From: Paracoccaceae bacterium
GTDB taxonomy: Bacteria > Pseudomonadota > Alphaproteobacteria > Rhodobacterales > Rhodobacteraceae
Length of the DNA stretch: 64,000 nt
Reading direction: 5' to 3'
Assembly (NCBI GenBank): GCA_007692585.1
Contig: REBU01000036.1
Coordinates: forward strand, 1 to 64,000
In this document: positions 2,877 through 64,000 of the stretch, piece by piece
Numbering within the stretch: the first letter of the stretch is position 1
Layout of the letters: every line of letters starts with the position of its first letter
Notes under the pieces: generated by a model
Seen by the model: the letters and a program-made list of their open reading frames with translations, nothing else
Databases searched by the model: none
Told to the model about the DNA's origin: nothing
Position numbers and translations under genes: made by a program

Positions 2877-5800
2877 TTACTCTGCCTGCAGATCGTGGAT
2901 CTGCACCTCTGGGCAGGCCGCGCGCGCAATCTCGCAAAGATGTGCGTGATGGGTCAGGTAGATCACCTGACCATGTTGCGCCATCTGTCCCAGTAGCCGA
3001 AACGCGGCTAGCGCACGGGTATCGTCGAAGGTTTCGAAAATATCATCGGCGATGAAAGGCACTGTGGCGCGGCTGGCTGCAAATTCGTGATAGCCAGCGG
3101 CGCGGAGCGCCAGATAGAGCTGAAACCGCGTGCCTTTCGACAAGGTCGCCACCGCTTTCGTGGCCCCATTGGCAAGCTGCGCCATCAGCACATCGTCACG
3201 GCCGCCCGCCTGCGTCACAAGCCCGCTGTAGCGGCCGCCGGTCAGCATGGCAAACGCCTCAGATGCCCGGGCCATCATGCTGGAGCGATGTGTGTCGCGG
3301 TAGCGCCGCAGGGCGTGCTCCACCGCGATGATGCCGGCCCGACGGGCGATGAACCGTCGCGTTTCCTCAGCGATCTGCATGATCAGCGTCTGGCGCTCGG
3401 CCTCCAGCCGTGCGGCTGCTGCATCCTGACTGACCCCGTCGCGCGCTTTCTGTGCTGCGGCAAGGGCAACATAGGCGTCTTGCTGTGCGTTTTCCTCATG
3501 CGTCAGCCGCGCCTCAAGAGCGTCCTGCTCGATCTGCAGCGCGGCAATGTCGAGTGTGGCAAGACGCGCGCGTTCAGGCGCTAGATCCGCACAGTCGAGC
3601 TTTTGCGCCAGTTCGTCGCGCAGGCTGGCGCAGTCCTGCGCTACCTCGCGGGCCTGCGCAATCGCGGCCAGCCTCTGCGCCAGCGCATCGAGCGGGCGCA
3701 AACCGAACCTAGCCTGCACGGGCGCGATCCGAGCGACCAGCGCCTCGCGGCGGGCGGCGATCAAGGCACAGTCGTCTATGGCCTCGGCCTTGGCCTTGCG
3801 CAAGCGTTTGCGCTCGGTCTTGCGCTCCAGCGCAGCCTGAAGATGCACCCGCAGCTGGGGCCAGAGCTGCTCTGGCCCACCCAATTCGGGCATATCCAAG
3901 GCCCGCGCGATGCCGCGCAGCTCGCTCGTGAACGCTGCAATATCGCGCTCGATGCTATCGATGCGCTGCGCAAACTCTGCGGCGCGACTGGCGCGCTCGG
4001 TCAGGGTTGCGACGAGGTCAAGAATTGCACGCATCGCTTCGGGCTCGGGTGCAGGTGTGCCGATCCAGCATTGCGCGCAGACTGTCGCCCATCGCTCTTG
4101 CCATTGGGCGCGCGCATCTTGCGCGGCTTTCAACGTTGTCTCGCGCACCACCGCCTCGCGTTCGCGCTCAGCGCGCAAGCGTAGGGCGGCTGCTTGTTCC
4201 AGTTGCGCTTCGGCTTCGGCCAGCATGGTCGTGAAGTCCGGATCCCTTGGCAAAGCGGCCAGCGTACCCAGCGTCTGGGCAAGCGCTGCATGTGCCGCGC
4301 CAATGCGGGATTGCACCGCGTCCAGCTCGGCGGCTGCGCGGTCATGGTCGTTGGCTGCCGCGATTGCTGCGTCGCGCCGTGCGCACCAATTAACGAAATC
4401 CGCCAGACTGCGCCCTTCCGGGGTCACGCCGATCCCGGCCCAGAGTGCGGCCACAGCGGCGCTCTGGCTTGTGCGCTCGGCCTGAGCGGCCACGCGCTCA
4501 GCTTCTGTGCTCTCCAGCGCGGCCTGGGCCTGTGCGATCAGGGTCAGTCTTTCGCTTTGTCGCGCGGCCTCGATCTGTTGCGCGCGAATGCGATCATCAG
4601 CGCGCATGGCCTGCTCGAATGTGGCGGCGGTGCTGGCGCTCAGGCTGGATTTATGGGCCGCCCACGCGCGGTCGCGGTCGTCGCGCAGATCGGCCACATC
4701 CTGCGCGCGCAACTCGGACGCAGCGCCCAGACCCGCGCGCGCCTGCGCCAGCTGCCCGCGCAGCCGCAGGTGATCGGCCTCGACATCGCGCAAGCGCTGG
4801 GCCGCGCTGTCCAGATCGTGGCCCAGCGCATCAAGATGGGCGGCAGATGGCAGGTCCAGACGGGCCAGCGCCTCGGGCGTGCCCGTCCATGGGGCGAGGG
4901 CTGCGAAGGCCGCACGCCGGGCGTTGTCGGCCTGCGCAAGCCCTGCGCGGGCGTTCATGTCCAGCCGCAGCAGATCGGCGCGGTGCAGATCCTTGATCAG
5001 CGGCCCCAGACGGCTCAACGCGGCCTCGTCCAGCGAAGCCCGGGCCGGGCCATCAGGCAGGGCGTCACGCGCGCGGTCATGTTCGCTGCGGGCCAGCTCC
5101 AGCTTGCTGCGCAGCACCGCGTCCTGTTCCAGCAGCGCCAAAAATTCTGCGATCAGCGTGGCAGGCAGGCGCGCGGCTTCCGGGGTCAGGTCCGGGCGGC
5201 CGAGTCTTTCCAGCAGCGCAGTCATCTGGCGGTCAAGATCGGCCGCGGCCGCCTGGCGCTTGGGCAGATCTTCCATATCTTTGGCAATGGCGCCGAAGCG
5301 ACGCTCCAACGCGTCAATCCGGTCGCTCAGCGCTTCGGCCTTCGCATCCTCGCCCAGCGCGTCCAGGGCCTGCGCCAGCGCAGCCCGTCGGGTTTCGGCG
5401 ACCGGGCCGAGCGCGTCCAGCTCTGCCTCCTCGCGCTGCCATGTCGGCATATCCGTAAGCCAGCTTGCAGGAAATTCCTCTACAGGTGGCAGCGTGTCCA
5501 AAACCGCTTCACGGCGCTCCAATCGCGCCAGATCGCGCAGCGCATCAAGATCGCGCGCGATCTCGCCCAGCCGTCGCCTTGTGGCTGCAGAATGCGTGCG
5601 TGCGGTCATGTATCGCGCCTCGGCCTCTGCCTGCGCTTCGCAGAGTTTGCGCCAGTCCGACGCCTTCACATCCGCTGCGCGCCGCGCGCCGTCTAACTCG
5701 CGCAGCCGTGTCTTGTGCTCGTTAAGCGTGAGTTTGCGCGCCCCCGCGCGGAACCATTGATCCGCATCTTCCTGCAAGCTGCGCAGCGCATCGCTCAGAT

Positions 5801-55942: not shown

Positions 55943-56118
55943 TCCCTTCGACCGCAAACGCGCGCCGAGAAGCGGCCCGTGCATGTCTTGCCAGTGGCGG
56001 CATCTTGGTGCCGCAACACGCCTGCGTCGCGTAGAAATCTGGCGGTTGCTGATGCGTGCGGCCTGTCACGCTGCGTGGTTTGGGTCGACCCGCAAACGCG
56101 ATCCATCCGCCTTTGCCG

Positions 56119-57021
56119 TTAACGCCCCAGCGACGCAAGCGTTTCTGAAATTTCGCGCACCACCACGCCTGTCGTATCGCCCAGATTATTGCCCCGACAA
56201 ATCGAGATGCTCAGCGTTTCGGTCAAGCGTCGATTTGCCAGCGGTCTGAAGCACAATGTCCCCGCTTCGACATCGGCGCAGACATCTGGCCATGTCAGGA
56301 AGCCAAGCCCGGCGCCTTGCCGCAGGAATGTCAGCAGAGCGGAGATGGAATTCGAGCTGATGCGCACCCTGGGATTGATACGTTCGCTGAGAATTTCCGC
56401 CAGCAGGCGCGTGTGCATCGACAGCGCCGAGGAGGGCAGGCAGAGCGGGTATTTCAGAGCTGTCGCCAGCGCCAGAGGCCCGTCGCCCTGCAGCGGCAGC
56501 GATGGGGCAAAGACGGCGCCCAGATGGTATTCCTGGGTTTCAACCACCACCAGACGCGACAGCCTGGGCATGTTGAAAGCCACGATCATGTCCAGTTCGA
56601 GCGCTTCGGCATGAGCGATGATATCGCCCGTCGTGCCTACGGCGAGATCCAGTTCGACATCGCCATAAAGCGCTTCCAGCCGCGTCGTCAGGCGCGGGAT
56701 CAGGGTGCCGACAAGCCCTTCCATCACCCCCAGCCGCAACCGCAGATCTGTTTTCTTGCCGGCCTGTTGCAGCCGCTTTGAAAAGGCCGCATCTGCTGCC
56801 ATCCAGCGCAATGCCTCGTCGCGCAGCGCGGCCCCTTCGGCGGTCAGCGCCACGCCGCCTGCACTGCGCACCAATAGCTTGGTGTCATAGCTGCGCTCCA
56901 GAAGTTGCAGCTGCCGCGACAGGGCAGGTGCGGAAATATTCAGCCGTTCGGCTGCGGCCCGGATCGAGTCGGATTGCGACACCACAAGGAAGGATCTGAT
57001 TTCACGAGAAAAAGACGACAT
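56119..57021 (-). CDS. LysR family regulator of the nucleobase-like cluster
   Basis: LysR protein of 300 residues: helix-turn-helix at about residues 5-45 (IRSFLVVSQSDSIRAAAERLN, ISAPALSRQLQLLE) and a substrate domain from about 90 (RLRLGVMEGLVGTLIPRLTTRL). ATG 57021 is chosen; the frame extends to 57099 without similarity. It is divergent from the deaminase gene with a 105-bp gap that has dyads, so it probably responds to the substrate of that operon. Confidence 0.9.
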   Translation of the reverse strand: MSSFSREIRSFLVVSQSDSIRAAAERLNISAPALSRQLQLLERSYDTKLLVRSAGGVALTAEGAALRDEALRWMAADAAFSKRLQQAGKKTDLRLRLGVMEGLVGTLIPRLTTRLEALYGDVELDLAVGTTGDIIAHAEALELDMIVAFNMPRLSRLVVVETQEYHLGAVFAPSLPLQGDGPLALATALKYPLCLPSSALSMHTRLLAEILSERINPRVRISSNSISALLTFLRQGAGLGFLTWPDVCADVEAGTLCFRPLANRRLTETLSISICRGNNLGDTTGVVVREISETLASLGR

Positions 57022-57028
57022 GGCCGGA

Positions 57029-57049
57029 GTGTAAGGTTTTACGCAACAC
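57029..57049. promoter_or_regulatory. Nested dyads in the LysR/deaminase gap
   Basis: GTGT (57029-57032) and ACAC flank a core GTAA-GGTT-TTAC palindrome (57031-57042). Such an interrupted dyad just upstream of the LysR start fits a LysR operator. The deaminase-side promoter may include TTGAAA at 57072-57077. Inference only. Confidence 0.4.
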
Positions 57050-57126
57050 CATGTAAATATCTTTCTACTTTTTGAAACACTCCTGCTGTGGCTAATCAAT
57101 GATGCACCGCAGCACAGGAGCCGCCC

Positions 57127-57597
57127 TTGCCCGATGACATTGCTTTACTTCGCCACTCTCTGCGCGCCGGAGAAGCCGCGCGCGCTGCTGGCAATCATCC
57201 TTTCGGGGCAGTTCTGGCCGATGCAGAGGGCACTGTGCTCATGACCATGGGCAATGCCTATCTGACCGACAAAGGCCCGGGCCATGCTGAAACCAATCTC
57301 GCCCGCGAAGCCGCGCGCCGCTATGACGCCGACTTTCTGGCCACCTGCACGCTCTACACGGCCTTCGAGCCCTGTTCGATGTGCGCAGGCACCATCTACT
57401 GGGCCGGGATTGGCCGCGTGGTCTTTGGCGTCACAGAGGCGCGCTTGCTCGAATTGACCGGCGACAACCCCGAAAACCCCACCATGTCCCTCTCGTGTCG
57501 CGATGTTCTGGCCGCGGGCCAGCGCCATGTGCAGGTCGAGGGTCCGTTTCCCGATCTCGAAGACGAAATCATCCGCTCGCATGACGGCTTCTGGTGA
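57127..57597 (+). CDS. Nucleoside/nucleobase deaminase, cytidine-deaminase fold
   Basis: Zinc deaminase of 156 residues in the guanine/cytosine/TadA-type group. Ligands: H53 and catalytic E55 in GHAETN, C83 and C86 in EPCSMC. NHPFGAVLAD near residue 24 is typical of guanine- and TadA-like members. The start is a TTG at 57127 with an ideal CAGGAG six bases before it; no in-frame ATG would keep the fold. First gene of the operon with the ABC importer and the 8-oxoguanine-deaminase-like enzyme, so a role in base catabolism is likely. Substrate not determined. Confidence 0.88.
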   Translation: MPDDIALLRHSLRAGEAARAAGNHPFGAVLADAEGTVLMTMGNAYLTDKGPGHAETNLAREAARRYDADFLATCTLYTAFEPCSMCAGTIYWAGIGRVVFGVTEARLLELTGDNPENPTMSLSCRDVLAAGQRHVQVEGPFPDLEDEIIRSHDGFW

Positions 57598-57636
57598 AGC
57601 CAAGTTCCCTGTTTCTTGCCCTCGAAAGGACATCTG

Positions 57637-58635
57637 ATGTCACGCACCACTCTGCCCCTTCTTGCCACCGTTTCCCTGATCGCCTCTGTCGCGCTGCCTG
57701 CCATGGCGGCCGACAAGGTCACGTTCCAGCTTGACTGGCTGCCGGGGGGCGACAAATCGGCGATCTATGTCTGCATCCATCACGGGTTCTGCGCCGATGC
57801 CGGGATCGAAGTCTCGCTTGAGCCGGGGCGCGGCTCGTCCGAGGCGATCACCAAACTCGCGACTGGCACCTCCGAGATCGGCCTCGCCGGGATCGAGGCG
57901 CTGATGGCCGCGCGCGCGAATGAAAATGTTCCCGTCACCGCGGTGATGAATGTCTTCAACATGGGTCCACATGCCTTCTACACGACTACGGAGACAGGCA
58001 TCACCACACTGGCCGATGTCCGGGGCCGCTCCGTCGCCACCTCGCCGTTTACCTCGTCCAATGTCTTTCTGCCGCTGGTGCTGGAAGAAAACGGCATGAC
58101 CGAGGATGATATCTCGCTCACCCGCTCTGACCCCGGCGCGCTCGGCCCGCTGCTGATGACCGGGCAGAGCGATGCGATCATCGCCTGGCTGACCGATGTC
58201 TCGCGCTATCAGGGACAGGCGCGCGAAGCGGGCAAGGAACTGGTGATCCTGCCCTGGGCTGATGCGGGGCTGGAACTGTATTCGGCGTCGCTTGTGGCGT
58301 CTGACACCTTCCTGGCCGAGCGCCCCGATGTCGCGAAACGCTTTGTTGCCGCGTTCAAGCAATCCCTGGAATTCGCCCAGGCCAACCCAGAGGGCGCAGC
58401 CGAAGCCGTGGCCGCGGTCGTTCCTGAACTGTCGGCCGAAGATGTTCTGGGCTCCTGGCTCGATGCGTCGAAACTGGCTTTTAACGAGCTGACCGAGACA
58501 TACGGGCTCGGCGCATTCGACGCTGACCGCCTGGCCGCCACATGGACGCGCGTGGCGGCAGCGCAGGGTCTGGACCCGGCCGCGCTCGACCCCGAGAGCA
58601 TCGTCGATCGCAGCTTCATGCCTGATGCGGACTGA
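57637..58635 (+). CDS. ABC transporter substrate-binding protein, NMT1/THI5-like
   Basis: Periplasmic binding protein of 332 residues with a Sec signal ([20 protein letters not shown], cleavage after AMAA). The NMT1/THI5 pattern is seen: [45 protein letters not shown]. Relatives bind hydroxymethylpyrimidine, pyrimidines, nitrate, taurine or aromatic sulfonates. AAAGGA precedes ATG 57637. The genes around it favour a heterocyclic base; this is inference. Confidence 0.92.
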
Positions 58636-58639
58636 ACCG

Positions 58640-59422
58640 ATGCCCCTTGCCCCGAACGCCATTGATTTCAACGCCGTCGGTCAGGTCTTTGCAACCCAGA
58701 GCGGTCCGCTGACGGCGCTTGATGCGGTGAACCTGTCCATCGCGCAGCATGAATTCGTGGCGGTTCTGGGGCCATCGGGCTGTGGGAAATCCACGCTGCT
58801 GCGGCTGACCGCCGGTCTGATGCTGCCCAGCGAAGGGCAGGTTTCGGTTTTCCGTCATCCTGTGACACGCCCGCGCGATGATGTCGGGATCGTGTTTCAG
58901 CAACCAACCCTGCTGCCTTGGGCGAATGTCCTCGACAATGTGACCTTCCCGGCCAGACACAAGCGCGGGCGGGTCAGTGCCCTGGACCGCGACCGCGCCG
59001 CCGAGGTGATTGCGGCTGTGGGCCTCAAAGGGTTCGAGGCGCGGCTTCCCGCAGAGTTGTCAGGCGGCATGCAGCAGCGCGTGGGCATCGCGCGCGCGCT
59101 GTTTCTCAACCCTGATATCCTGCTGATGGATGAGCCCTTCTCGGCGCTCGATGCGCTGACGCGCGATGCGATGGGCTATGAATTGCTCAAGCTCTGGCAG
59201 GCCAGTCCCAAAACCGTGATGTTTATCACCCATTCCATTCCCGAAGCCGTGCTTCTGGCCGACCGCGTGATCGTGATGAGTGCCCGGCCCGGACGCATCA
59301 TCGCGGATCTGCAAGTGCCACTGGGCCGACCGCGCGACGAGCTGGCCCTGCGGGCCCCCGAAGTGCAGGATTTCGCGGCCCATCTGCGTGAGCTGCTGAT
59401 CGCAAAGGAGCCTGCCCTGTGA
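58640..59422 (+). CDS. ABC transporter ATP-binding protein (nitrate/sulfonate/pyrimidine type)
   Basis: Cytosolic ATPase of 260 residues: Walker [11 protein letters not shown]-loop [10 protein letters not shown], signature LSGGMQQR, Walker B ILLMDEPF, and H-loop ITHS. The SsuB/TauB/ThiZ type matches its NMT1-like binding protein. Start uncertain: ATG 58640 or 58625, the latter overlapping the preceding stop; neither has a clear ribosome site. The gene overlaps the permease gene. Confidence 0.94.
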
Positions 59423-60273
59423 GTGCCGATGTCGAGCCGCATGCCAAACGCGCGGGGGCCGTGCCCGCTGCGCCCACGCGCAAAGCCCCGGGGCTGCCCC
59501 TGACCGAGCGGCTGATCGCCACGCCGGTCGTGCTACCTTTGCTGACCTTCGCGGTCATTCTGGTGCTCTGGGAAGTGGCGACACGGGTCTTTGCGGTCCC
59601 GTCCTTCATCCTGCCCGCGCCCAGCCGGATCATCGACGGCTTCGGGGCCGTTCCGCCCGCACGCTGGAGCGCGCATGTCTGGGCCACGCTGCGGGTCGCG
59701 CTGCTCGGCTATCTTGTGGCAATCGTGGTGTCGCTGCCCATCGCCATCGGGCTGGCCAAATCGCGGCTGATGTCGCGCGCGCTCTACCCGCTGCTGGTGG
59801 TGATCCAATCTGTGCCGGTCGTGGCTGTGGCACCGATCATCATCGTGGTGCTGGGCACCGATGACGCGCCGCGCGTTGTCATCACCTTCATGATCGCCTT
59901 TTTCCCGCTGGTAGTGTCGATGACGACCGGGCTGATGGCCACGCCGCCAGAACTGATCGAGCTCTCGCGCAGCCTGCGCGCACCGGGCTATCGCGAGATC
60001 TCGCAGATCCGGCTGCCCTATGCCGTGCCCTATATCTTCTCGGGGCTGAAAATCTCGGTCACGCTGGCGGTCATCGGGGCCGTGGTCGCGGAATTTGTCG
60101 CCGCCGATGTGGGAATTGGTTTCTTCATCCAGTTCTCGACCTCGATGTTCCGGCTGCCGCAAGCCTGGGCGGGACTGGTGGTGCTGGTCGCCATGTCGCT
60201 GATCCTGTTTCAGGCCGTCAGTCTTGCGCAGCGCGTCTTTTTCCCTTGGTCTTTGCCCAAGGAGCGCCGCTGA
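59419..60273 (+). CDS. ABC transporter permease (nitrate/sulfonate/pyrimidine type)
   Basis: Inner-membrane permease of 284 residues with six hydrophobic helices and the EAA-type loop ([26 protein letters not shown]). A 40-residue Ala/Pro-rich cytosolic N-terminus precedes the first helix. The start is GTG 59419, overlapping the ATPase stop, with AAGGAG 8 bases ahead. Its stop overlaps the next ATG (TGATG at 60271). Completes the importer. Confidence 0.93.
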
Positions 60274-61631
60274 TGCTGATCACGAATATCGCCCATGGCT
60301 GGACAGGGGATGCCGCCGGAACGCGACTGACAGGCGCGATCCGCGTCGAGGGCGGGATCATCACGGCCATGGGCACGCTCGCGCCCCGGCCCGGCGAAGA
60401 CTTGCTGGACGCGCGCGGCTGCGTGGTCACGCCGGGACTGGTGAATACGCATCACCACCTCTTTCAATCCGCGCTCAAGGGGCTCGCGATCAACGCGCCG
60501 CTCGACAGCTGGCTTGAACAGGTGCCCTACAGCTACTGGCCCGCCCTCGATGAGGATGCCTTGCGCATCTCCGCGCGGATCGGGCTGGCGGAACTGGCGC
60601 TCAGCGGCGCGACAACGGTCTGCGATCATCACTACATTTTTTCGGACAGATACGATTACGATCCGGCAGAGGTGCTGTTTTCGGAGGCCGCGCGCTTTGG
60701 GTTGCGTTTCGTTCTCGCGCGGGGCGGCATGGCGCGGGGGCGCGATTTCGGCCCCGCTGTGCCGGCTGCGCCGACCGAAAGCGTCGCGCGGTTTCTCGAC
60801 GGGGTGGCGCAGGCCGCTGCGCGCTGGCACGATCCTGCGCCAGACGCTATGATGCGGGTCGCCTGCGCGCCGACGACGCCGAATTTCAACTTTCCGCCGA
60901 CAGCCCTGCCCGAAATCGCGCAGGAAGCCCGCCGCCTTGGCCTGCGGTTGCATGCCCATCTGTCTGAAAACACCGCCTATGCCGCCCAGACCCTGCGCGA
61001 TTTTGGCAAACGGCCCGTGCCGTGGCTCGCGGATCTGGACTGGCTGGGGCCTGATGTGTGGTTCGCGCATCTGGTCGATCTGCAGCCCGAGGAGGTCGCA
61101 TTGCTCGCGGCCACCGGCACGGCGATGGCGCATTGTCCCCAAGCCAATGCCCGGCTTGGCTCGGGGATCGCACCTGCCCCTGCGCTGCACCGTGCGGGCG
61201 GCATCGTCTCGCTGGCGGTGGATGGTGCGGGCGCCAATGAGGCGGCCGATATGGGCGCGGCGCTCTATACGGCCTTCAGCCTGCATCGCGCGGCCCATGG
61301 GGTCGCGGCCACCGCGCCCGGCACAATCCTGCACTGGACGACCATGGGCGGGGCGCGGGCGCTTGGCCTGCCGTCGCTGGGGGAACTGGCGGTCGGCAAG
61401 GCGGCTGATATCACGCTGTTCGATCTGGACGATCTGCGCAATTTCGGGCTGCACGACCCTGGCCTTGCCCCGATGGTCACCGGCGCTGCCCGCGTGCGTC
61501 ACAGCATGGTGGCAGGTCGCCTGATCGTGCGTGACGGGCGGCTGCCTGGCCTTGATCTGGCGGCCCTGTCGGACGCGGCCCACCATACCACACGACGACT
61601 GGCACGCTTGCCCGTGCCTGACCTTGTTTGA
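60273..61631 (+). CDS. 8-oxoguanine deaminase-like amidohydrolase
   Basis: Amidohydrolase-superfamily deaminase of 452 residues. Metal ligands: H60-H-H62 (VNTHHHLFQS), a later His in LHAHLSEN, AHCPQANARLGSGIAP and the Asp of VDGAGANEAADMG. This combination is that of 8-oxoguanine deaminase; close relatives act on isoxanthopterin, hydroxyatrazine and other heterocycles. ATG 60273 overlaps the permease stop (TGATG). A second deaminase beside the CDA-fold one, but of an unrelated fold. Confidence 0.9.
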   Translation: MLITNIAHGWTGDAAGTRLTGAIRVEGGIITAMGTLAPRPGEDLLDARGCVVTPGLVNTHHHLFQSALKGLAINAPLDSWLEQVPYSYWPALDEDALRISARIGLAELALSGATTVCDHHYIFSDRYDYDPAEVLFSEAARFGLRFVLARGGMARGRDFGPAVPAAPTESVARFLDGVAQAAARWHDPAPDAMMRVACAPTTPNFNFPPTALPEIAQEARRLGLRLHAHLSENTAYAAQTLRDFGKRPVPWLADLDWLGPDVWFAHLVDLQPEEVALLAATGTAMAHCPQANARLGSGIAPAPALHRAGGIVSLAVDGAGANEAADMGAALYTAFSLHRAAHGVAATAPGTILHWTTMGGARALGLPSLGELAVGKAADITLFDLDDLRNFGLHDPGLAPMVTGAARVRHSMVAGRLIVRDGRLPGLDLAALSDAAHHTTRRLARLPVPDLV

Positions 61632-61706
61632 CCCCCGGAGTAGAAGCAGTCAGCGCCGCTCGTTGGCGCAGGTCATTGCTCCCCCATGTTCGAAGGAGAC
61701 AACATC

Positions 61707-62705
61707 ATGAGCAACGCAACTGACTACACCCTCGCGGAACTGACGAAGGAAGCCGGGCTGGGCGCTTACGGCGAAGAGGTCGAGCGCGACATCCCGCAGA
61801 TCGATCTGTCCGACTATTTCAACCGCAAGCCGGAGATCAGCGAGGCGCTTTGGGATGCGGCAACGGGCATCGGCTTTTTCCAGCTCACGGGCCACGGCAT
61901 CCCTCAGACGCTGATCGATGACGCCTTCGCGCTTTCTGCCGGGTTTTTCGACATGCCAAGCGACACGAAGGCCAGATACCCGCTCAAACCCGGCACCAAT
62001 GCAGGGTGGGAATACATGGCGCAGGTGCGTCCTTCGACCGGGACAGCGGACCGCAAGGAAAGCTACCAGATCACCTTGCCGCGCATGTCGGATCTCTGGC
62101 CGACCGGGCAGGAGCTGTTCGGCTTCAAGGAAACCATGCTGGCTTTCGAGCGCCACAACTGGGCTGTGGCGATGAAAGTGCTCGACTGCTTTGCCGAGCG
62201 CCTCAGTTTCCCGCCGGGGTTTTTCACTGATGGCCACAACCCCGACACCAAGGAATACCAGTCCACGTTGCGGCTGATCCATTATCTGGGGATGGAAGAT
62301 GCCAAGCCCGAGGATTTCAAGTTCTGGCGCGCGGGCGCACATACCGATTTCGACTGCCTGACGCTTCTGCACCAGAAAGACGGGCAGGGGGGCTTGCAGG
62401 TCTGCCCGGGCAAGGATGAAAAGGGCCGCGCGACGCAATGGACCGATGTGCCCCCCATTGGCGGGGTCATCACCTGCAATATCGGCGATATGCTGATGCG
62501 GTGGTCCGATGACAAGCTGCTGTCAAACCTGCACCGCGTGCGTATGCCCAAGCCGCAGGAATATCTCGGCCCGCGCTATTCCATCGCCTATTTCGCGCAG
62601 GCCAATATGGACACGCTTCTGGCCGGACCGATGGGCAAATATGAGCCGATGACCGCACATGACTACATCCAGATGCGCCTTGGCGCGAATTTCGGGAAAA
62701 AATGA
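61707..62705 (+). CDS. Fe(II)/2-oxoglutarate oxygenase, isopenicillin-N-synthase-like (A)
   Basis: Non-heme iron oxygenase of 332 residues in the IPNS/2OG family. The iron triad is H212, D214 (GAHTDFDCLTLL) and H276 (NLHRVRM); R290-x-S292 (PRYSIAYF) would bind the 2-oxoglutarate carboxylate. AAGGAG precedes ATG 61707. It follows the amidohydrolase by 75 bp and overlaps the second oxygenase (ATGA). Thymine 7-hydroxylase belongs to the same fold, which would fit a base pathway. Substrate unknown. Confidence 0.93.
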   Translation: MSNATDYTLAELTKEAGLGAYGEEVERDIPQIDLSDYFNRKPEISEALWDAATGIGFFQLTGHGIPQTLIDDAFALSAGFFDMPSDTKARYPLKPGTNAGWEYMAQVRPSTGTADRKESYQITLPRMSDLWPTGQELFGFKETMLAFERHNWAVAMKVLDCFAERLSFPPGFFTDGHNPDTKEYQSTLRLIHYLGMEDAKPEDFKFWRAGAHTDFDCLTLLHQKDGQGGLQVCPGKDEKGRATQWTDVPPIGGVITCNIGDMLMRWSDDKLLSNLHRVRMPKPQEYLGPRYSIAYFAQANMDTLLAGPMGKYEPMTAHDYIQMRLGANFGKK

Positions 62706-63649
62706 TGGGACTTCCGCTCATTGATATTTCGGGGCTGACGGCCTCTGACCCTGCTGCGCGCCGCGCAGTGGGGGCAGAGTTGCGCGCGGCCTGTCTGGAG
62801 CACGGCTTCTTCTACTGCACCGGGCATGGCGTGCCCATCGGGCTGATCGAGGCCGCCATGACACAGACCCGCGCGCTGTTCGATCTGCCGCTGGCGGCAA
62901 AGCATGCCCTCGACAAGGCGCAAAGCCCTGCAAATCGGGGCTACGAGCATCTGGGCGGCCAGACGCTGCAGCCTGGCGCGCTGCCTGACCGGAAGGAAGG
63001 CTTCTACCTTGGCGAGGATCTCGGCCCTGATCATCCGCGCGTGCGCGCCGGGGCCTTCAATGCAGGCGCCAATCTCTGGCCTGCGGACCTGCCGGCCTTT
63101 CGCCCGGTCATGGTCGCCTATTTCGCCGCTCTGGGCGTCGTGGCCGAGCGCCTGATGTCCGGGCTTGCCCTGTCGCTGGAGTTGCCAGAGGATCACTTCC
63201 GCGCTTTCACGACCGAGCCCGCCGCAACCCTGCGTCTGCTGCATTACCCGCCCAGCCGCCCCGAGCAACCCGATGAGCTGGGGGCGGGGGCGCATACTGA
63301 TTTCGGCGGACTGACGCTTCTGTTGCAGGATGATGTCGGCGGCTTGCAAGTGATGGGCCGGGACGGCTGGATCGAGGCGCCGCCAATGCCGGGCGCCTAT
63401 GTGGTCAATCTGGGCGACATGATCGCGCGCTGGACGAATGATCGTTACTGCTCGACCCTGCACCGGGTCGTCAACCGATCGGGCCGCGAGCGCTACTCGA
63501 TCCCCTATTTCTACAGCGGCAATCCAGAGCATGAGGTCCGCTGCCTGCCCACCTGTCTCGCTTCTGGGGAACAGCCGAAATACCCGCCCGTCAAGGTGCA
63601 GGACCATCTGCGCGCCATGTATGCCCGGACCTATGCCACAACTTCCTGA
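62702..63649 (+). CDS. Fe(II)/2-oxoglutarate oxygenase, isopenicillin-N-synthase-like (B)
   Basis: Second oxygenase of 315 residues. The triad is H198, D200 (GAHTDFGGLTLL) and H254 (TLHRVVN), with R264-x-S266 (RYSIPYF). It aligns with oxygenase A at the motifs but is clearly different elsewhere (NRGYEHLGG, PDRKEGFYLGED), so it is not a recent duplicate. Two successive ATGs (62702, 62705) are possible starts, coupled to the preceding stop. Likely a consecutive oxidation step. Confidence 0.93.
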   Translation: MMGLPLIDISGLTASDPAARRAVGAELRAACLEHGFFYCTGHGVPIGLIEAAMTQTRALFDLPLAAKHALDKAQSPANRGYEHLGGQTLQPGALPDRKEGFYLGEDLGPDHPRVRAGAFNAGANLWPADLPAFRPVMVAYFAALGVVAERLMSGLALSLELPEDHFRAFTTEPAATLRLLHYPPSRPEQPDELGAGAHTDFGGLTLLLQDDVGGLQVMGRDGWIEAPPMPGAYVVNLGDMIARWTNDRYCSTLHRVVNRSGRERYSIPYFYSGNPEHEVRCLPTCLASGEQPKYPPVKVQDHLRAMYARTYATTS

Positions 63650-64000
63650 GCGTCTGATCCTGATCCATGGCGCCTGGGCGGGCCCCTGGGTCTGGGATGC
63701 GCTGATCGCGGAACTCGCGCGGCATGGGCTGCCCGCTCAGGCGCTTGCGCTGCCCGGTGATGGCACGCATCACATCCCGCCGCCAAAAGCCACCGAGACC
63801 GATTTTCTGCAGTGCATCGTACAGGCGATAGAGGCCGCGCCGGGCCCGGTCGCTCTGGTGGGCCATTCGGGTGGCGGTATGCTGGTCACCGCAGGCGCCG
63901 AGGCAGTCCCTGACAAGGTCAGCCACGGGATCTGGATCGCAGGCATGCTGATCCCCGATGGCCGCAGCTTTGACGATATTCAGGCGCAGATCATGGGGCC
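63633..64000 (+). CDS. Alpha/beta hydrolase, partial at window end
   Basis: Start of an alpha/beta-fold hydrolase; 122 codons are visible before the right edge. The oxyanion-hole segment LILIHGAWAGPWVW (8-21) and nucleophile elbow GHSGGG with S79 are clear. Its ATG lies 17 bp inside the end of oxygenase B, in another frame, showing translational coupling. It could hydrolyse a ring-opened or ester product of the oxygenases; the remaining triad residues and the true length lie off the window. Confidence 0.85.
   Translation, partial: MPQLPERLILIHGAWAGPWVWDALIAELARHGLPAQALALPGDGTHHIPPPKATETDFLQCIVQAIEAAPGPVALVGHSGGGMLVTAGAEAVPDKVSHGIWIAGMLIPDGRSFDDIQAQIMG

Follow-up and report, generated by a model that had tools for sequence, protein, structure and literature searches.

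The question raised by this locus is which compound its enzymes take up and degrade. The locus lies in a 64,000-nucleotide stretch of DNA from Paracoccaceae bacterium (GenBank assembly GCA_007692585.1, contig REBU01000036.1), referred to here as the window, and operon coordinates are those of the whole stretch. A rightward operon, flanked by a divergent LysR-type regulator gene, encodes in this order a CDA-fold deaminase, the substrate-binding protein (SBP), ATPase and permease of an NMT1/THI5-type ATP-binding cassette (ABC) importer, an amidohydrolase (AH1), two Fe(II)/2-oxoglutarate (2OG) oxygenases (OXY1 and OXY2), an alpha/beta hydrolase (ABH) and a second amidohydrolase (AH2). A xanthine riboswitch of family RF03054 lies between AH1 and OXY1, and the operon is conserved and does belong to the xanthine-riboswitch regulon; its layout is unusual. 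Very probably, it serves to import, deaminate and oxygenate a compound that then joins purine oxidation, with xanthine as the controlling signal, a statement that leaves the substrate unnamed.

Operon Layout

56119–57021, minus strand: divergent LysR-type regulator (PF00126, PF03466)
57127–57597, plus strand: CDA-fold deaminase (PF00383, 63.8 bits; best PDB matches CMP/dCMP and guanine deaminases)
57616–58635, plus strand: NMT1/THI5-type SBP (PF09084, 131.9 bits)
58625–59422, plus strand: ABC ATPase (PF00005)
59419–60273, plus strand: ABC permease (PF00528)
60273–61631, plus strand: AH1, COG0402-type amidohydrolase of the 2PAJ clade (PRK12393; PDB 2PAJ; tree)
61633–61686, plus strand: xanthine riboswitch aptamer (NMT1 motif, RF03054; 52.2 bits, gathering score 36, E 1.2e-9)
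61692–61698, plus strand: GAAGGAG, likely ribosome-binding site of OXY1 (sequence)
61707–62705, plus strand: OXY1, Fe(II)/2OG oxygenase nearest thymine 7-hydroxylase (Pfam, PDB relatives, AlphaFold2 and Foldseek)
62702–63649, plus strand: OXY2, second IPNS-like Fe(II)/2OG oxygenase (Pfam, PDB relatives)
about 63633–64499, plus strand: ABH (window part 63633–64000; L009:8634-9500)
64496–65935, beyond the window: AH2, second ATZ/TRZ-type amidohydrolase

Each named gene family of the operon scores above its Pfam cut-off. An earlier note on this DNA had described the divergent LysR gene and the coupled deaminase, importer, amidohydrolase, oxygenase and hydrolase genes correctly, and had rightly called their iron, zinc and 2OG motifs intact: by sequence reading, the CDA-fold protein has HAE...PCSMC, AH1 has the metal ligands HHH, H, H and D, and both oxygenases have HxD...H and RxS. 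Its inventory was incomplete in that the riboswitch had been overlooked. It had also advised reading past 64000, where ABH ends and AH2 follows, with a convergent response-regulator/phosphatase gene 3' of AH2. For the CDA-fold deaminase, scores stay below all curated subfamily cut-offs (TadA equivalog, 46.9 against a cut-off of 150). Relatives of the SBP in PDB are 4nmy, 3ix1 (a formyl-aminopyrimidine binder) and THI5/THI13.

The Xanthine Riboswitch

RF03054 is the only RNA found by Rfam in 56000–64000 at E ≤0.5. The match is full-length (model positions 1–56) and fills the gap between the AH1 stop at 61631 and the ribosome-binding site of OXY1. From the aptamer end at 61686 the order runs through the Shine-Dalgarno sequence to ATG 61707 of an IPNS-like oxygenase, as in the published gene types; this ATG behind GAAGGAG is the most probable start of OXY1, over the frame's first ATG at 61686. 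Folding of the region gives −21.9 kcal/mol when free and −22.1 kcal/mol when constrained to the aptamer, and the Shine-Dalgarno sequence shows no clear difference.

Such riboswitch operons have already been outlined (Yu and Breaker, 2020; PMC7373994). One class member binds xanthine (about 3.7 µM) and urate (about 25 µM), xanthine methylated at N1, N3, or N7 is rejected, and another member acts as an OFF switch of gene expression (PMC7373994). For the aptamer in the window, xanthine binding and OFF switching are predicted. Genes downstream of the class encode IPNS-like oxygenases, NMT1/THI5 and tauA-type proteins, PRK12393 amidohydrolases and, rarely, tadA, and the precise functions of the oxygenases are stated there to be unestablished (PMC7373994). 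The earlier note could name no pathway for this gene combination, which holds in part; its gene types are nevertheless those published as neighbors of xanthine riboswitches. In the crystal structure, the RNA recognizes the pyrimidinedione half of the ligand and leaves the purine C8 exposed to solvent (PMC8266621). Isoxanthopterin is among the compounds purchased for binding tests in the published RNA work, and the term "lumazine" is missing from the main text of both papers (PMC7373994, PMC8266621).

Two other roles were considered for the importer. Uptake of a thiamin precursor, suggested by the NMT1/THI5 family, is rejected because the aptamer upstream of OXY1 is RF03054 and the test RNA was unresponsive to thiamin-pathway compounds (PMC7373994). 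Sulfonate uptake is rejected on scores, the SBP reaching 93.8 against the SsuA cut-off of 163.5 and 33.1 against the taurine cut-off of 304.25.

Conservation of the Module

Among 295 genomes of the family, relatives of OXY1 (E 1e-40) are present in 13. RF03054 is present in 12 (11 over the cut-off), every one an OXY1 carrier (hypergeometric 1.8e-20, with genomes taken as independent), and in 0 of 14 control genomes. All 16 copies in the family (11 over the cut-off) lie 5–369 bases upstream of OXY1 or SBP. In G056, the one OXY1 carrier left over, the riboswitch is absent; the OXY1 of this genome (L035:9571-10557) departs from the HxD iron motif and is set among shortened genes, an apparent case of decay. 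The AH1 model matches 208 of the 295 genomes at E 1e-100, and matches below 1e-220, taken as AH1 itself, occur in seven, all OXY1 carriers. In six of these AH1 lies directly 5' of OXY1, and in the seventh (G042) it is on a different contig. Gene order is therefore conserved beyond chance, whereas its absence had been named in the earlier note as grounds for refutation. Of the two oxygenases whose shared order with the amidohydrolase the note had proposed to look for, OXY1 is the conserved one, and joint conservation is narrow: OXY2 lies directly 3' of OXY1 in 4 of 13 family loci and elsewhere within 20 kb in one more; OXY2, ABH and AH2 are far less conserved than the rest of the operon. A genome of the same genus (G179) lacks OXY1, AH1 (at E 1e-100) and the riboswitch, and two family OXY1 loci are plasmid-borne, so the operon is best described as an accessory catabolic module.

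Beyond the family, a scan for AH1 relatives with one genome per species gave at least 80 loci, with 18 labeled AH1-type among the matches listed. Also among the matches listed, loci with both AH1-type gene and OXY1 come from Hyphomicrobiales, Rhodobacterales, Pseudovibrio, Acetobacteraceae, Oceanospirillaceae, Marinobacter, Halopseudomonas, Pseudomonas and Alteromonas, and three of the seven AH1-type loci without OXY1 are from Bradyrhizobium and have a Rieske oxygenase gene instead. By tblastn, OXY1 also occurs with an AH1-type gene in L053, L055 and L066, and does not in L056 and L096. Rfam finds the riboswitch in 19 of 27 loci (26 copies), the next gene being OXY1 for 17, SBP for 5 and AH1 for 4; this count is not independent, because OXY1 or AH1 had been the criterion by which the loci were chosen (for L010, similarity to the window).

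Independent evidence comes from a survey of 398 Pseudomonadota genomes by riboswitch alone, in which 17 genomes carry 30 copies of RF03054. Directly 3' of the 29 copies outside the window lie OXY1 (12), an NMT1-type SBP (13), a Rieske gene (2), an AH1-type gene (1) and a CDA gene (1), and all nine riboswitch-linked binding proteins tested belong to PF09084. Rows of this census reassigned by hand were 'none' (3), 'ATP2' (1) and '.' (3). After tblastn, G514 was assigned to OXY1, SBP and AH1-type and G447 to OXY1; of the '.' rows, those of G313 and G659 went by sequence to the Rieske gene, and a short frame ahead of SBP in G398 was counted as SBP. The gene caller was poor at some loci, and L027, L053, L055, L056, L066, L096, L101, L202 and L206 were re-read by tblastn; L087 and L100, with few genes called, lie outside this re-reading.

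The Amidohydrolase AH1

AH1 scores 557.1 bits against PRK12393 (cut-off 543), a model titled merely "amidohydrolase family protein." Its best solved relative is PDB 2PAJ (E 3.5e-113), which we take to be the isoxanthopterin deaminase Sgx9339a. In a tree, 24 AH1-type rows cluster with 2PAJ (SH-aLRT 99), and 7WW2, an 8-oxoguanine deaminase, falls in the other, 8-oxoguanine-type group; the tree was made by a quick method, and several long branches were flagged by the program. The motif APTT is found in AH1 and 15 of the 24 AH1-type rows, the rest having APTS (4), APNT (3), APTA (1) or APTC (1), where 8-oxoguanine-type rows have APCS or GPCS. A 2010 abstract on isoxanthopterin deaminase reportedly gives two active-site threonines as a mark of the enzyme, and these may correspond to the APTT motif. 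To our knowledge, the only characterized AH1 relatives act on pterins. In CP031587 the depositor's name for the AH1 ortholog is isoxanthopterin deaminase. According to a review (PMC5270733), amidohydrolases from the Sargasso Sea act as deaminases of isoxanthopterin and pterin-6-carboxylate.

Riboswitch operons in two genomes, G603 and G533, encode relatives of 2PAJ at 90 and 83% identity, in the order riboswitch, binding protein, Rieske oxygenase, ATPase, permease and 2PAJ-like enzyme. Loci of Klebsiella pneumoniae and Pantoea combine riboswitch, binding protein, 2PAJ-type enzyme and OXY1.

The earlier note had called AH1 8-oxoguanine-deaminase-like, which is imprecise. AH1 belongs to the same superfamily, and a route for 8-oxopurines or damaged guanine, with AH1 as 8-oxoguanine deaminase, might be drawn from this; however, AH1 reaches 397.6 against the PRK08203 cut-off of 532, has APTT in place of APCS or GPCS and sits in a separate clade. 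Moreover, five of the seven family AH1 carriers have a second match with a score typical of the other type (the type being inferred from score), and this route is highly improbable.

OXY1, OXY2 and the Rieske Stand-In

An AlphaFold2 model of OXY1, built from 12 sequences, has a mean pLDDT of 80.6, and the top 11 Foldseek chains are all thymine 7-hydroxylase (identity 29–32%). The modeled likeness fits an enzyme of pyrimidinedione rings, but the identity is that of distant relatives and the fold is common. Genome-wide at E 1e-60, OXY1 is present in 13 of the 17 riboswitch genomes and the Rieske oxygenase in the other 4, with both in none. Since these unrelated oxygenases replace each other, they probably carry out the same reaction, for which ring hydroxylation and N-demethylation are both possible. 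By sequence, the nearest solved relatives of the Rieske protein are SxtDIOX/SxtT, followed by the methylxanthine N1-demethylase NdmA.

This exchange bears on a rival explanation, in which N-methylguanine from RNA turnover would be deaminated by AH1 or the CDA-fold protein and demethylated by OXY1 or the Rieske enzyme, with release of formaldehyde, to xanthine, which would feed back through the riboswitch. The strictly complementary replacement of OXY1 by a relative of Sxt enzymes and NdmA argues for it, as do the rejection of methylxanthines (PMC7373994), which would suit a need for feedback from the demethylation product, and the folD and metF-like genes that adjoin the operon in CP031587. 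Linkage to such one-carbon genes is not conserved, though: FolD was found at 2 and MetF, a DMGDH-like protein and GFA at 1 each of 47 test loci, and each at 0 of 45 control loci. Also against this rival, the only characterized relatives of AH1 known to us act on pterins (reviewed in PMC5270733). We regard the N-methylguanine explanation as rather unlikely.

Relation to Purine Breakdown

XdhB and guanine deaminase score above curated cut-offs in all 13 family OXY1 carriers, which speaks against the operon standing in for either xanthine dehydrogenase or guanine deaminase. The genome of the window also encodes the OHCU decarboxylase of urate breakdown. In Marinobacter, OXY1 and AH1 are divergent genes with a riboswitch each. 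Beside them lie xdhB, xdhC and a guanine deaminase gene, all scoring above curated cut-offs (547.1 against 375.4 for guanine deaminase), as well as genes for OHCU decarboxylase, HIUase and urate oxidase. Since it stands beside complete purine oxidation, the module most likely supplies that pathway with a non-canonical compound. The riboswitch, the 2PAJ-type clade and this Marinobacter xanthine/urate cluster support the purine or pterin part of the earlier suggestion that a modified purine, pyrimidine or pterin is broken down.

A canonical purine route, as proposed by Yu and Breaker, would instead lead from guanine, adenine and hypoxanthine to xanthine or urate through the deaminases and the oxygenase, bypassing xanthine dehydrogenase. 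The riboswitch ligands and published gene associations (PMC7373994) speak for this route, as does a nucleobase permease near some loci (3 of 47, yet 5 of 45 controls). Against it stand the presence of both canonical enzymes in every family carrier, the Marinobacter pair placed beside its own guanine deaminase and xdhB, and the AH1 score of 101.6 against the guanine deaminase cut-off of 375.4 (TIGR02967); it is quite improbable.

The linkage comparison sets 47 test loci, many picked by OXY1 or AH1, against 45 control loci of the 8-oxoguanine type, which are themselves purine loci and thus not neutral. OXY1 is found at 43 test and 0 control loci, 2PAJ-type enzymes at 27 and 0, and CDA at 18 and 1, counts that speak for linkage within the limits of this selection; UraD is found at 4 and 1. 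HIUase (4 vs 6), PuuD (3 vs 3) and guanine deaminase (4 vs 31) are not enriched at test over control loci.

Proposed Pathway and Substrate

The observed basis of the proposed scheme is gene content, riboswitch, linkage, clade and fold; from these we infer the substrate, the order of reactions and the point of entry into purine breakdown. The NMT1/THI5-type importer would take in a guanine-like fused pyrimidine, and AH1, perhaps together with the CDA-fold protein, would strip its 2-amino group. With Fe(II), O2 and 2OG, OXY1 would oxidize the resulting pyrimidinedione-type bicycle, and the product would join xanthine/urate oxidation. Accumulated xanthine or urate would bind the aptamer upstream of OXY1 and turn OXY1 translation off. 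The likeliest substrate would be a pterin, such as isoxanthopterin or pterin-6-carboxylate, and the whole scheme with a pterin is tentative, falling a little short of probable.

Several observations weigh against this proposal. Both the exchange of OXY1 for an NdmA-like enzyme and the riboswitch's discrimination against methylxanthines fit the N-methylpurine rival at least as well. Linkage to xanthine dehydrogenase (XdhB 6 of 47 test vs 8 of 45 control loci) or to the permease occurs at few loci and is not enriched, and no pteridine-ring-breaking enzyme was identified. AH1 is just 45% identical to 2PAJ, itself the presumed isoxanthopterin deaminase. AH1 occurs in just 7 of 13 family OXY1 carriers, a 2PAJ-type enzyme (E 1e-80) in only 8 of 17 riboswitch genomes, and OXY1 at only 11 of the 18 AH1-type loci among the matches listed; the constant partner is hence the oxygenase rather than the deaminase, and substrates may differ between lineages. 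In addition, 8 of the 27 loci are riboswitch-free (L010, L035, L036, L040, L041, L043, L047 and L050), including Alteromonas with OXY1 and AH1 and Bradyrhizobium with AH1 and the Rieske gene.

A more specific form of the pterin scheme starts from a pteridine-to-purine route reportedly studied in the 1960s by McNutt and others. AH1 would turn isoxanthopterin into 7-hydroxylumazine, OXY1 or the Rieske enzyme would oxidize 7-hydroxylumazine, and ring contraction would give xanthine-8-carboxylate and then xanthine; the riboswitch might bind lumazine intermediates as well. That the operon represents the missing genes of this old route, and the riboswitch a feedback sensor of pterin breakdown, is improbable. 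Searches of the open-access literature, judged mostly from their result lists, gave nothing pertinent on pteridine degradation or methylguanine catabolism, and a link between this riboswitch, 2PAJ-type enzymes and the oxygenase exchange did not turn up in them.

Related Clusters and Loci

A second cluster lies on contig C108 of the same genome (L010, C108:5000-24000). At 5464–14311 of L010 it encodes a creatininase-type hydrolase, a third 2OG oxygenase (OXY3), two flavodoxin-like proteins, an FAD_binding_4 oxidase, a cytosine-deaminase-like amidohydrolase, a second NMT1 importer and a gene read as RidA. Clusters of this type adjoin OXY1 in G127, G215 and, with shortened genes, G056 (L027, L028 and L035, where genes labeled OXY2 are counted as OXY3, L027 being the one checked), and similar genes occur with AH1-type genes in Bradyrhizobium and Klebsiella. 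It may be, therefore, that one pathway draws on both of these clusters in the genome of the window. A cobalamin riboswitch (L010:2519-2726, 136.5 bits) lies upstream of a gene for a TonB-dependent receptor, nearest the vitamin B12 type and below the curated cut-off of that type.

Other OXY1 or riboswitch loci vary in their partners. At the riboswitch loci L201, L205, L214 and L215, all from a single proteobacterial family (f43), SBP and CDA genes run into ureD, and in L215 an OXY2-like gene lies between them. Plasmids of Agrobacterium (L162:10124-11476) and Rhizobium (L163:9924-11276) carry importer, OXY1, LysR and two riboswitches each, and a cytosine-deaminase-like gene (PRK07583) replaces AH1. 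Rhizobium johnstonii 3841 has the importer together with OXY1 and two riboswitches. A Streptomyces plasmid (L166:11950-14311) has OXY1 followed by a nucleobase:cation symporter gene, and no RF03054 above the gathering score; OXY1 thus reaches Actinomycetota. CP125156.1 (L164) is listed among Klebsiella plasmids but, at 5.37 million bases, is probably a chromosome.

Significance and Comparison with Known Systems

Two results narrow the function of the oxygenases under this riboswitch, namely the interchange of OXY1 and the Rieske enzyme across 17 genomes and the kin of 2PAJ in riboswitch operons. The intra-operon switch of a xanthine-sensing class makes the substrate of the operon directly testable, and the identity of the pathway would show what the xanthine riboswitch really monitors.

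AH1 resembles the presumed isoxanthopterin deaminase Sgx9339a in clade, APTT motif and PRK12393 model, but is just 45% identical to it, and its activity is predicted. OXY1 matches thymine 7-hydroxylase (PDB 5C3P-5C3S) best in sequence and fold and shares HxD...H and RxS; that enzyme, however, is a Neurospora protein acting on thymine, whereas OXY1 is grouped with genes for bicyclic bases. The NdmA and Sxt Rieske oxygenases are the nearest solved kin of the protein that 4 of the 17 riboswitch genomes have in place of OXY1, but a Rieske enzyme of this type is absent from the genome of the window at E 1e-60 and its fold is unrelated to that of OXY1. The closest known systems are the riboswitch operons of Yu and Breaker, which share RF03054 upstream of an IPNS-like oxygenase, an NMT1/THI5 importer, a PRK12393 amidohydrolase and tadA-like genes. 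Unlike these, the operon in the window has its aptamer inside the operon, between AH1 and OXY1, carries OXY2, ABH and AH2 in addition at its 3' side, and is flanked by a divergent LysR gene.

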